From assembly GCA_031262745.1 (NCBI GenBank), contig JAISHE010000077.1:1-43828 (forward strand): a stretch of DNA of 43,828 nucleotides, in the 5' to 3' direction. The position numbers were made by a program, and so were the translations under genes. The notes below the pieces were generated by a model. The model saw only the letters and a program-made list of their open reading frames with translations, was not told where the DNA came from and did no database searches. Every line of letters starts with the position of its first letter. The first letter of the stretch is position 1. Source of the DNA: Culturomica sp. Its GTDB lineage: Bacteria; Bacteroidota; Bacteroidia; Bacteroidales; Marinifilaceae. This document shows positions 38,043 through 43,717 of this stretch, in pieces.

Positions 38043-38813
38043 ATGACAACAATGAATAAGATTTTAAATTTAGTATTAGCAAGTATGTGTTTAATGCTTT
38101 TAGCAGCTTGTTTGTCTAAGGCTGTTGCTGCAACAACAAACAAAACTTCTGCCGGTTGCGGCAGTGATTTCACTGACAGTCGGGATAATCAGGTTTACCC
38201 TACGGTTCAAATCGGGAGTCAGTGTTGGATGGCTAAGAATTTGAATTACGGCAGTAGAGTGAGCGGAAATGATAATAAAACACACAAACGCTCCGGCGTT
38301 CAAAAAATATGTTATGATAATTTGGAAAGTAATTGTGATATCTACGGCGGACTTTACAGTTGGAAGGAAACTGTAAACGGCGAAAATTCCGGCAGTATCA
38401 AATATGTTGTCGGCAGTTCAAATGTTATTCAAGGTGTATGTCCGGATGGTTGGCATGTTCCGAGCGATGAAGAGTTTAAGACTTTGGAAATGCAACTCGG
38501 TATGACACAGGCACAGGCAAACACTATGTATGGGCGTAGTAATGATCAGGGGCTTCAGTTAAAGAGTACCACCGGTTGGTTGTCAAACGGGAATGGCACT
38601 AACAGTAGTGGTTGGAGCGGGCTTCCGGGTGGCTATCGGAATAACTCCGGTAGTACGTTCAGCAACGTTGGTGCGGGTGGGTACTGGTGGTCGTCATCAG
38701 AGAATCGTTCTTCCAGTGCGTGGCGCCGGGCTTTGGTCTATGTAAACGCTACAGTCCACCGTTTCACCTACAATAAATCCTACGGCTTTTCCGTCCGTTG
38801 TTTACTGAATTAG
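38043..38813 (+). CDS. FISUMP-domain lipoprotein with variable C-terminus
   Basis: 256 aa, the smallest FISUMP member here. N-terminal signal ending MLLAAC (Cys about residue 23) suggests a lipoprotein; the ATG at 38052 is an alternative start. The rest is a single FISUMP domain: YPTVQIGSQCWMAKNLN, KICYDNLESNCDIYGGLYSW, CPDGWHVPSDEEFKTLE, then the variable stretch beginning at residue 185 and ending GFSVRCLLN. Expected to be tethered to the cell surface with the C-type-lectin-like fold exposed. It follows bioG on the same strand after 84 bp but is functionally unrelated. Compared with the other two copies it lacks the Ig-like domains. Confidence 0.9.
   Translation: MTTMNKILNLVLASMCLMLLAACLSKAVAATTNKTSAGCGSDFTDSRDNQVYPTVQIGSQCWMAKNLNYGSRVSGNDNKTHKRSGVQKICYDNLESNCDIYGGLYSWKETVNGENSGSIKYVVGSSNVIQGVCPDGWHVPSDEEFKTLEMQLGMTQAQANTMYGRSNDQGLQLKSTTGWLSNGNGTNSSGWSGLPGGYRNNSGSTFSNVGAGGYWWSSSENRSSSAWRRALVYVNATVHRFTYNKSYGFSVRCLLN
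38595..38810 (+). other. DGR-like variable region VR2
   Basis: Last ~72 codons of the FISUMP lipoprotein. This copy keeps the most AAC/AAT codons at variable places (AAT AAC after CGG; AAC before GTT; AAT AAA near the end) and may be closest to the ancestral template. Where it differs from VR1 and VR3, mainly codon bases 1 and 2 change. Framework ends GGC TTT TCC GTC CGT TGT. Pattern seen; mechanism inferred. Confidence 0.65.
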
Positions 38814-38847: not shown

Positions 38848-38938
38848 CGAAAATATACACCGACATCGTCATCGGGCGTATGCCATACGCCCGTAGATTA
38901 CAGGCGTTTCGGATATTATATTATGTGTCGTGAAAATA
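38844..38938 (+). repeat. ~95-bp dispersed repeat, copy A
   Basis: Starts CGCCCGAAAATATACACCGA and contains the hairpin GGGCGTA-TGCCA-TACGCCC. A copy in the same direction lies at 40551-40647 with the first ~50 bp nearly identical. The two copies bracket the gene pair 39087-40305. The rest of the 273-bp gap 38814-39086 holds the 18-bp palindrome and the promoter of the next gene. Confidence 0.85.
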
Positions 38939-40550: not shown

Positions 40551-40647
40551 CGCCCGAAAAATATACACCGACATCGTCATCGGGCGTATGCCATACGCCC
40601 ATACATTACGGGAGTTGCGGATATTATATGGTGTGGCGTGAAAAATA
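40551..40647 (+). repeat. ~95-bp dispersed repeat, copy B
   Basis: Same orientation as copy A (38844-38938). Shares the block from CGCCCGAAAA through the hairpin GGGCGTA-TGCCA-TACGCCC and a more diverged second half (CGGATATTATAT, then GTGAAAA). Together the copies form direct repeats ~1.7 kb apart. Confidence 0.85.
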
Positions 40648-40822: not shown

Positions 40823-43717
40823 ATGAATGTGGAAGATACCGAAAGAGGGAAAAAAAGAGGCGAAATTAACCATGTATTTCGCAATTTTTTAATTTGTGCC
40901 TGTATCCTGTTGAGCACAAATGTTTTAGCTAATAATGTGAGGTTCAATTCAAAGCCGACTGTTTTTTTAAGCGGCGACAGCGTAATAATCTCATTTTCAT
41001 TATCTTGGGATCACTCGTGGCGAGATGACTTTAATTGGGATGCTGTTTGGGTTTTTGGGAAGTACGGAAAGGGAATTTCCGACAATTGGCATCATCTAAA
41101 CCTCTCAACGTCAGGGCATATAATGCCTTCGGGGTTCACTTATGATGTCGGAAACATTGATGCCGACAATGCGGGCGGTTTGTTCCTTATGCGTGCCGAC
41201 AAGGGCAGCGGAGCTGTTAATAATCAAACGTTTACTATCAAAACCCATGTTTCCAACTTTAACAATATAAATGCCGCAAATCTTAGCAGCGGCGACGTTT
41301 TTCTCAGCCTTTCCGCTATAGAAATGGTATATATTCCTTACGGGGGTTACTATCTTGGTGACGGAGCAACGCCTAATCGTCTCGGCGGCAGCGACGGAGC
41401 AGCGATAGCCGTGAACAGCGAAGATGCTTTGACGGTTTACACTGTTACTTCCGGCACTGTCGGAGCTTCAAAGAGTTTGCCTTCGTCGACTTCCGCTAAT
41501 TTCCCAAAAGGTTATAAAGGTTTTTATTGCATGAAATATGAGGTGAGTCAAGATCAGTATGTAAGTTTTCTCAATTCTCTCACTCGTGCTCAACAAAAAG
41601 CACGAATCGGCAATAATCTTGATGAATTGAAAGTGGGTGATTATGTTTTCGGCGATAAATTGAGTCCAAGCTATAGAAACGGCATTTGCGTTATATCCAA
41701 TCCTGCAGGTAAGCCTGCAATTTTCGGTTGCAACCTTAATCCTGCCGAACCTTATTTCGGTGCGGATGACGGAAAGTGCATCGCTTGCAATTATCTCACT
41801 CCCGCCGATATGTTGGCTTATTGCGATTGGGCATGTTTGCGCCCAATGAGTGAGTTGGAATATGAAAAGGCGTGTAGAAAACCTTATCCTCAGGCAGCTA
41901 TTGAGGGCGAGTTTGTTTGGAACTCAGCAAGCGGCGTCAGCGGTTTGAGCGGAGCGGGAGCATTGCTCAACGCCGGCAGGGTGAATGAGCAGCCGGCTTC
42001 GGGAGCAACTAACGTCAATTATAATAATGGCAGTTTGGGACCTGTTCGCAGTGCGAGTTTCGGCACTTCGAGTTCCACGCAAGCTCAGGCGGGTGCCACT
42101 TTTTGGGGTTTGATGGAGATGAGCGGCAACGTGGCAGAGCTTTGCTATTCCGTTAATGCTGCCACAACTTTTAATACTTATAATATTTACGCTTCTCACG
42201 GCAACGGCGAAGTAAACCCTTCGGGAGCGACGGATATAGCTACCACTGTTTGGTCAAATGCAGCTGCTTCATTTATCGCTAAGGGCGGCAGTTTTGCGAG
42301 CACAAACACCACCGAGTTAGCAATTTCGGATAGAACGAGAGCCACTGTTTCCGACGTTAGAGACAGCACCGTTGGTTTTCGGGCAGTGCATACTTTTGGT
42401 GGCAGTAGCGTAACGGTTGATGCGGGAGAGATTTTTGTTCCTGTTGAGGGATGTGCCACCGGAATAACAGTTTCCAACACCACTTCCGCAAGCGTGCTTT
42501 GGAACGGAGCAGAGTTTGAAGTTCCTGTTAACTATGTTTGGTATGTGAAGGAGGGAGCAGCCGGTGCTTGGAGTTTGATACCTGATGAAACGGGAGCAGA
42601 TTTGAATGATTATAAACCTTCGCTGCCTTCTACCGGCATTGGAATCACTGTCTGGTTTAAGCGTAAGGCAGTTACTTCTTTGGGAGAGGCTGAGAGCGCA
42701 GAGATTTCTACCACCGTCCCTAATTTGAATATAACTTTCGAGCCTTCGACATCTAAGCTTGATGCTTGCGGAGCTGGCTCAGTTAGGGTGAGCGTGCCTT
42801 ATAACACAACTACCCCCGTTTTCACATGGACGACGGAAACGGGCAACAAAACGGGCGTAAGCTACACTCCTGAGTACACGGATTTCACGAAAGGCACTTT
42901 AACAAATGGAGATGTTTCTGTTACGTGTTTGGTGGAGGTTTCGGGTTGCACGAACAGCAAGAGTTTGACTGTGTCGGTAACTCCACTTCAGCCGAGAATA
43001 AGTTTTACTTGCGGTAGCATATACACAGACACGAGAGAAGTAATCTCTCAGGATTATCCTACGGTTCTAATCGGAGATCAGTGTTGGATGACAAAAAACA
43101 TGAATATAGGCACACGAGTAGCCGGTTCAGATTACAATACTCATCAGACAGCCGGAATCCAGAAGATATGTTATGATAATTTAGAAAGTAATTGTGATAT
43201 TTACGGTGGACTTTACAGTTGGGCAGAGGCAGTGAATGGAGAGCAAACCGCTTCGGGCGCAATCAATACGGCAACCGACTTTAATAAGAAATGTGCCGTA
43301 GACGGTAGCGGACATACACAGGGCATTTGTCCTGATGGTTGGCATGTTCCGAGCGATGCGGAGTTTAAAACACTCGAAATGGCTCTTGATCCTCCGCTTA
43401 CACAGGCTCAGGCAGATGCCACGATTTGGCGTGGTAGTGATCAGGGGCGTCAGTTAAAAAGTATTGATTTGTGGACATATTATGATGCTTCAACAACGGG
43501 CACCAACACCTCATTTTGGGACGGGCGATCGGGTGGCGACCGGGTTAGCTCCGGTGGTACGTTCAGCCTCGTTGGCACGCACGGATTCTGGTGGTCGTCA
43601 TCAGAGTACAGTTCTTCCAATGCGTGGCGCCGGCATCTGGATTACAGCTACGCTACAGTCTACCGTGACGACACCAATAAGTCGCGCGGCTTCTCCGTCC
43701 GTTGTCTTTTAAATTAG
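40823..43717 (+). CDS. FGE-sulfatase / Ig-like / FISUMP surface protein with variable C-terminus
   Basis: 964 aa. A long charged start (about 1-20) precedes the signal core FLICACILLSTNVLA. Residues ~38-160: beta-rich domain; ~165-525: formylglycine-generating-enzyme-like domain (AIEMVYIPYGGYYLGDG, GFYCMKYEVSQDQYVSFLN, CDWACLRPMSELEYEKACR, LMEMSGNVAELC, GFRAVH); ~530-735: Ig-like/PKD segments with FTWTTETG; ~740-964: FISUMP domain ending GFSVRCLLN. FGE-sulfatase and FISUMP both have C-type-lectin-like folds, so the protein carries two. A catalytic role is unlikely; it is probably a cell-surface binding protein. No type IX C-terminal sorting domain is apparent. Its last part is paralogous to the gene at the left edge. 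Confidence 0.9.
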   Translation: MNVEDTERGKKRGEINHVFRNFLICACILLSTNVLANNVRFNSKPTVFLSGDSVIISFSLSWDHSWRDDFNWDAVWVFGKYGKGISDNWHHLNLSTSGHIMPSGFTYDVGNIDADNAGGLFLMRADKGSGAVNNQTFTIKTHVSNFNNINAANLSSGDVFLSLSAIEMVYIPYGGYYLGDGATPNRLGGSDGAAIAVNSEDALTVYTVTSGTVGASKSLPSSTSANFPKGYKGFYCMKYEVSQDQYVSFLNSLTRAQQKARIGNNLDELKVGDYVFGDKLSPSYRNGICVISNPAGKPAIFGCNLNPAEPYFGADDGKCIACNYLTPADMLAYCDWACLRPMSELEYEKACRKPYPQAAIEGEFVWNSASGVSGLSGAGALLNAGRVNEQPASGATNVNYNNGSLGPVRSASFGTSSSTQAQAGATFWGLMEMSGNVAELCYSVNAATTFNTYNIYASHGNGEVNPSGATDIATTVWSNAAASFIAKGGSFASTNTTELAISDRTRATVSDVRDSTVGFRAVHTFGGSSVTVDAGEIFVPVEGCATGITVSNTTSASVLWNGAEFEVPVNYVWYVKEGAAGAWSLIPDETGADLNDYKPSLPSTGIGITVWFKRKAVTSLGEAESAEISTTVPNLNITFEPSTSKLDACGAGSVRVSVPYNTTTPVFTWTTETGNKTGVSYTPEYTDFTKGTLTNGDVSVTCLVEVSGCTNSKSLTVSVTPLQPRISFTCGSIYTDTREVISQDYPTVLIGDQCWMTKNMNIGTRVAGSDYNTHQTAGIQKICYDNLESNCDIYGGLYSWAEAVNGEQTASGAINTATDFNKKCAVDGSGHTQGICPDGWHVPSDAEFKTLEMALDPPLTQAQADATIWRGSDQGRQLKSIDLWTYYDASTTGTNTSFWDGRSGGDRVSSGGTFSLVGTHGFWWSSSEYSSSNAWRRHLDYSYATVYRDDTNKSRGFSVRCLLN
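43499..43714 (+). other. DGR-like variable region VR3
   Basis: Last 72 codons of the 964-aa protein, from residue 893. Variable codons (GTT AGC; AGC CTC; CAC; CAT; TAC; GAC GAC ACC AAT; CGC) compare with VR1 and VR2 as substitutions at template A positions, while GCG TGG CGC, GTC, and GGC TTC TCC GTC CGT TGT are fixed. The first ~10 codons (ACC TCA TTT TGG GAC GGG CGA TCG) diverge more broadly, so ordinary divergence or a different template contributes there. Downstream 43718-43828 contains no gene. Confidence 0.65.

Follow-up and report, generated by a model that had tools for sequence, protein, structure and literature searches.

The question raised by this locus is whether three genes for FISUMP-domain proteins, located on a 43,828-nucleotide stretch of DNA from Culturomica sp. 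(the window), owe their variable C-termini to a diversity-generating retroelement (DGR) situated elsewhere in the genome. The window is the entire contig C45 of a genome of 2.12 Mb (78 contigs, 96.7% completeness). All three window proteins score above the cut-off for the FISUMP family (PF09603/TIGR02145; Table 1). The N-terminus of target gene 2 has a lipobox-like motif (LAAC) and that of target gene 3 an export signal-like stretch, both read by eye. A sequence-only reading of the window had proposed that the last ~72 codons of the three genes (941-1156, 38595-38810, and 43499-43714) align without gaps and are variable regions (VRs) of a DGR. The ungapped alignment was confirmed at these positions, and every VR1/VR2/VR3 codon triplet that had been listed as an example is present in the sequence. 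Homology to the template repeat (TR) described below begins ~31 bases inside these ranges in all three VRs. The accompanying claim, that third bases and synonymous sites are conserved, was partly right, but with all codons counted, differences occur at third positions about as often as at the first two (pairwise differences at codon positions 1/2/3 of 19/12/21, 22/20/18, and 23/18/17). These frequent third-position differences are explained by the age of VR1 and VR2, which differ from the TR at 12 and 18 non-adenine positions, respectively, many of them scattered.

Table 1 Features of the window (contig C45) and of the two DGR loci on contigs C3 and C64
Feature	Contig	Position	Strand	Description
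Target gene 1	C45	2-1159	+	FISUMP gene, 5' end open, truncated by contig start; PF09603 E 2e-38
VR1	C45	972-1152	+	3' end of target gene 1; resembles present TR (GAG GCT CGG block), eroded
Target gene 2	C45	38043-38813	+	256-aa lipoprotein-like FISUMP protein; PF09603 E 1e-39
VR2	C45	38626-38806	+	Variable region of target gene 2; type B, eroded
REP-like palindromes	C45	38838-38895	.	Candidate target-site hairpins; inverted repeats just downstream of target gene 2
Target gene 3	C45	40823-43717	+	964 aa; FGE-sulfatase-like PF03781 E 2e-9 and FISUMP PF09603 E 1e-29
VR3	C45	43530-43710	+	3' end of target gene 3; looks fresh, fits inferred template B
DGR1 RT	C3	7859-9340	-	PF00078, PHROG 1423
DGR1 TR	C3	9362-9542	-	22 bases from RT start
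DGR1 avd	C3	9847-10185	-	bAvd: PF22296 E 1.6e-17; PHROG 'Avd protein of DGR'
DGR2 whole locus	C64	177-4138	-	Complete: RT, HRDC accessory gene, TR, adjacent target
DGR2 RT	C64	177-1163	-	IGNLTSQ/YMDD
DGR2 HRDC gene	C64	1138-1641		Accessory gene
DGR2 TR	C64	1817-1949		
DGR2 target	C64	2129-4138		PEGA/FGE-sulfatase
DGR2 VR	C64	2126-2258		

A DNA search of the genome with VR3 returned 37 matches, including one (C3:9365-9542, minus strand) just upstream of a reverse transcriptase (RT) gene that was found independently by PF00078. The remote template predicted from the window, rich in AAC and AAT codons and next to a DGR-type RT and avd, is thus located on contig C3 of the same genome, in a cassette with the order avd, TR, RT on a single strand (DGR1). 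AAC or AAT make up 18 of the 59 codons in the TR reading frame; opposite all six variable codons listed as examples from the window, the TR has AAT, AAC, AAT, AAC, AAC, and AAC (codons 16, 24, 46, 55, 59, and 63). The bAvd gene is the only one in the genome, and it scores 57.9 bits with the NCBIfam Avd model, under the cut-off of 80. The best solved-structure match of the RT is 8ub7, which we take to be the BPP-1 DGR RT complex. With IGNLTSQ at 215 and YVDD at 247, the protein has the DGR-class motif (I/L/V)GxxxSQ and a catalytic YxDD; the IGNLTSQ type of motif has been reported for DGR RTs (PMC3521204). Homologues of this RT adjoin TR/VR pairs, and in other phyla the loci of related RTs have FISUMP-type TR/VR pairs next to them, with GFSVRC-like tails. 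The ORF upstream of avd matches MutS_I only weakly, just below the cut-off, and Rfam gave no match within the cassette.

Comparison of the VRs with the TR reveals where the two diverge. Mismatches are concentrated at template adenines, as had been anticipated: pooled over the 16 ungapped VRs, they affect 354 of 784 adenines versus 193 of 2112 other bases. The VRs on contigs C1 and C18 differ from the TR at 21/49 and 28/49 adenines, respectively, and at none of the 132 other bases, and each has 0/57 mismatches at non-adenine third positions. In the window the same bias is present in VR1 (20/49 adenines, 12/132 other bases, p = 3e-6), VR2 (22/49 and 18/132, p = 3e-5), and VR3 (22/49 and 10/132, p = 5e-8). 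The non-adenine mismatches of VR3 are confined to a block characteristic of a second template (TR_B, see below) or to the last two bases, and among the window VRs only VR3 looks freshly rewritten. Adenines are replaced most often by G, then T, then C. The most-changed site is the first adenine of AAC (0.70), and both adenines of the single AAG codon are never changed (0/32), a pattern that fits the avoidance of stop codons together with a conserved lysine.

These data bear directly on the simplest alternative, ordinary divergence of paralogues in a large, Asn-rich FISUMP family whose loops vary under selection and which involves no retroelement. Large FISUMP families are widespread in the order with no link to DGRs (90/119 genomes), and the third-position differences among the window VRs would also be expected from such divergence. 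However, the VRs match a TR that adjoins RT and avd genes, and the C1 and C18 VRs together differ from it at 49 adenines and at 0/264 other bases, third positions included. The discovery of the TR and these adenine-only mismatches refute ordinary divergence, to which we assign a negligible probability. The sequence-only reading had named two outcomes that would speak against a DGR, the lack of an RT or template and mismatches spread evenly over positions and bases; both were examined, and neither was found.

We therefore consider it very probable that the window C-termini are VRs of the C3 DGR, produced by mutagenic homing, with the cassette at a remote site and the FISUMP C-termini it modifies dispersed over the genome. 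In the proposed mechanism, the TR RNA on C3 would be copied by the error-prone RT with Avd, adenines of the TR would be copied as random bases, and the resulting cDNA would replace the homologous VRs at the 3' ends of scattered FISUMP genes. Palindromes downstream of the VRs may help the cDNA to integrate.

The palindromes are a lead in this respect. Stems of at least 8 bp occur within 150 nt downstream in 13 of 17 target genes versus 20 of 76 others, in a genome where palindromes are also widespread repeats. BPP-1 requires a hairpin downstream of its VR (PMC3240598), and the palindromes here may be target-site hairpins. REP-like palindromes (GGGCGTATGCCATACGCCC and other families) occur genome-wide, with copies in the window at 38874-38892 and 40582-40600, and an ORF beside the C3 cassette (C3:10778-11287) resembles, by eye, a REP-associated transposase.

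The homologous 3' flanks of the target genes fall into about four classes, shared between genes of different N-terminal architecture, as though C-terminal modules and flanks had been duplicated together. This raises the possibility that gene conversion among paralogues, and not retrohoming, spreads the shared framework. The small number of flank classes, which implies duplication of whole modules, is in line with this, as is the most similar VR pair, whose agreement at adenine sites slightly exceeds that of shuffles (34, versus a shuffled mean maximum of 30, p 0.016). However, gene conversion would copy the variable states as well, yet these are near-independent between VRs, and it would not restrict differences to template adenines; we regard it as very improbable. 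Module duplication followed by retrohoming fits the flank and VR facts alike.

Because the C1 and C18 VRs match the TR at every non-adenine base, rewriting from the present TR is recent, and these spotless VRs suggest that the C3 enzyme is working in the organism now. The alternative is a relic, a DGR that once diversified the FISUMP genes and is now inactive, so that the VR differences are fossils. Most VRs are indeed eroded, the template appears to have changed, and the RT frame continues for ~100 residues beyond the point where its relatives usually end (C3:7859-8180, minus strand), through a translated interspersed repeat. Set against this are the intact RT catalytic motifs and Avd, and the agreement of two VRs with the present TR at all of their non-adenine positions, 57 third positions in each. 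We consider a relic unlikely.

The VRs themselves point to a template other than the present one. Nine VRs, including VR3, share a non-adenine block (roughly AAC AAC GCT ACA GTC ... AAC AAC) that differs from the present TR (AAT GAG GCG AGG GTC ... ACC AAC). We rebuilt the corresponding template, TR_B, from the VRs, leaving out each tested VR in turn. Against the leave-one-out TR_B, mismatches in the nine type-B VRs affect 234/488 adenines and 58/1141 other bases. VR3 differs from it at 25/54 adenines and only 2/127 other bases, and VR2 at 24/53 and 13/128. A search of the genome for the source of the type-B VRs identified no second TR, Avd, or RT of the DGR1 type in the assembly. B-like templates are present in related DGRs of Marinilabiliaceae and Cloacimonadota, and for this reason the present TR looks derived. 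We favor the reading, based on sequence comparison, that VR3 and the other type-B VRs were made by an earlier template, TR_B, which has since been replaced. A second avd-type DGR with template B, present in the organism and missing from the assembly, might instead own VR3 and VR2. Such a cassette would explain why nine VRs share a block that has no counterpart in the present TR and that TR_B accounts for, and an assembly of this fragmentation and completeness, with five contig ends inside VRs where 0.5 are expected, leaves room for one. However, none of its components was recovered, and, given the templates of related DGRs, the present TR may simply descend from TR_B. We regard a missing cassette as possible but doubtful.

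The window genes represent a small part of the targets. The genome has 35 matches to PF09603/TIGR02145, including the TR and two genes that were matched in two pieces, and a FISUMP C-terminus is present on 34 ORFs or contig-end fragments, not counting the TR itself. We graded these 34 C-termini by their non-adenine mismatch to the better of the two templates. Ten are at ≤5%, about ten more at 8-11%, and the rest decay to 30%. A clear DGR footprint is retained by about 20 of the 34, with 10 looking fresh. Non-adenine mismatch exceeds 8% in 24 of the 34 targets, so rewriting by the present TR is not under way in many of them. Under a criterion applied in PMC8144416 (≥75% of mismatches at adenines), four VRs fit the present TR (C1, C18, C25:28237, and the truncated C65), while six more, including VR3 of the window, fit the inferred second template only. 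Ten VRs have at least 80% of their mismatches at adenines when the better template is used, six of these only against TR_B. The contig ends of C48, C62, C65, C67, and C78 are the five that lie inside VRs; repeats, or variety at the level of reads or of the population, may have caused these breaks.

The N-termini of the targets are varied and include short lipoprotein-like proteins, FGE-sulfatase-like domains with FISUMP, PEGA with FISUMP, and fibronectin-like repeats with FISUMP. In target gene C25:28237-30693 the VR is internal (region C25:30049-30690) and is followed by ~150 residues with an Lcl_C domain. That one remote element would act on dispersed targets of different architectures had been suggested from the three window genes alone, and the many such genes in the genome support it. 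The same retroelement has probably marked 20-30 scattered genes encoding probable surface proteins, which is unusually many for a single template. Export signals were assigned by eye; the targets are putatively exported and may bind variable ligands.

A scan for adenine-biased repeats over the whole 11.3 kb of contig C3, which stops 1.1 kb upstream of avd, found no VR on it; applied to relatives, it detected adjacent VRs in many, G047 among them. A VR in cis is usual for a DGR core cassette and not strictly defining. Our broader proposal, which we put forward tentatively and at somewhat less than an even chance, is an all-trans DGR that has no target of its own and serves at least 20 exported FISUMP receptors on varied N-terminal scaffolds, with a template that has been replaced at least once and VRs that record both the old and the new version. 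The relative G047 has 30 FISUMP matches and four related RTs and was examined as a candidate for a further multi-target case; the one of its TRs used in a genome-wide search has a single full VR match, in cis.

A second, complete DGR (DGR2) is present on contig C64. Between its TR and VR, 18 of 34 adenines differ, together with a single other base that lies past the stop codon, and a genome search with the DGR2 TR found no targets besides the one in cis. DGR2 is independent of DGR1. The DGR2 target and a FISUMP gene on C65 (C65:2-1978) share a 450-residue N-terminal part that is 86% identical, and this PEGA-type N-terminal scaffold is common to the DGR2 target (C64:2129-4138) and two FISUMP targets of DGR1, C65:2-1978 and C25:28237-30693 (86% and 68% identity). 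One scaffold thus carries two kinds of head, with a separate DGR for each.

The C-type-lectin fold of the FISUMP domain, which is shared by known DGR targets, is taken here from the literature. Structure models of the domain were obtained with a pLDDT of 59 at first and 85.5 for the replacement. Fold searches with both models gave no significant PDB match, and the weak matches include C-type lectins.

Several features of DGR1 are known from other systems. As in the DGR of Bordetella phage BPP-1 (mtd-avd-TR-brt), the order is avd-TR-RT, the changes from TR to VR are adenine-specific, the VR is C-terminal, and the template is rich in AAC. However, BPP-1 has a single target beside a phage cassette, whereas here the contig is cellular, and the targets are many and remote, none adjoining the cassette. 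The same target domain (Fib_succ_major, FISUMP) has been described in human microbiomes, with nine putative targets counted across many samples (PMC4159848), in contrast to ~34 such C-termini, alongside one cassette, in a single genome. In Treponema denticola, one TR serves several dispersed targets, many of them lipoproteins, and a remote VR matches the TR type of another strain, comparable to the type-B VRs (PMC4891356). That DGR reaches ~eight targets at most, including one within the core cassette, and has an HRDC accessory gene, as in DGR2 (PMC4891356); DGR1 uses Avd instead. Trichodesmium and other cyanobacteria have CLec modules on different N-terminal domains and remote targets (in T. 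erythraeum, two DGRs account for 18 TR/VR loci), but their targets are of another family, with two proximal targets per DGR (PMC7517822, PMC8867640). Thiohalocapsa PB-PSB1 has several DGRs per genome, trans-diversified targets, and incomplete loci (PMC10907252); its 15 targets are spread over nine loci and linked to conflict systems, unlike the many probably exported proteins of a single cassette. Multiple VRs per TR are also already known, as are single templates with dozens of copies, illustrated by an atypical element in which few adenines are changed (PMC6642488).

Earlier work has thus already described the DGR mechanism, HRDC accessory genes, and targets of the FISUMP type or at remote sites. 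The unusual features are the number of recognisable dispersed targets for a single avd-type cassette (for which we claim no record), the lack of a target in cis, and the traces of two generations of template in one genome. A cassette with remote targets only would escape DGR scans; here the template codons were exactly predictable from reading the targets alone. With ~20 targets in varied chromosomal contexts and of varied ages, and two template versions, the genome lends itself to the study of mutagenic homing in trans. A recent claim that the editing rate is set by the orientation of the target relative to replication (PMC12875486) could be examined on these ~20 targets. Judged by GC skew, 15 of 19 targets are co-directional, and genes in general lean likewise.

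The searches give no indication of a phage origin for DGR1, as viral contigs have only distant RTs (~30% identity) and phage records gave distant FISUMP matches only. A 735 kb uncultured phage (LR756501.1, 653714-653959) has a FISUMP-like stretch with 40% identity over 46% of the query. Another reverse transcriptase in the genome, C52:919-2451, matches the AbiP2 anti-phage family (PADLOC E 1.7e-190).
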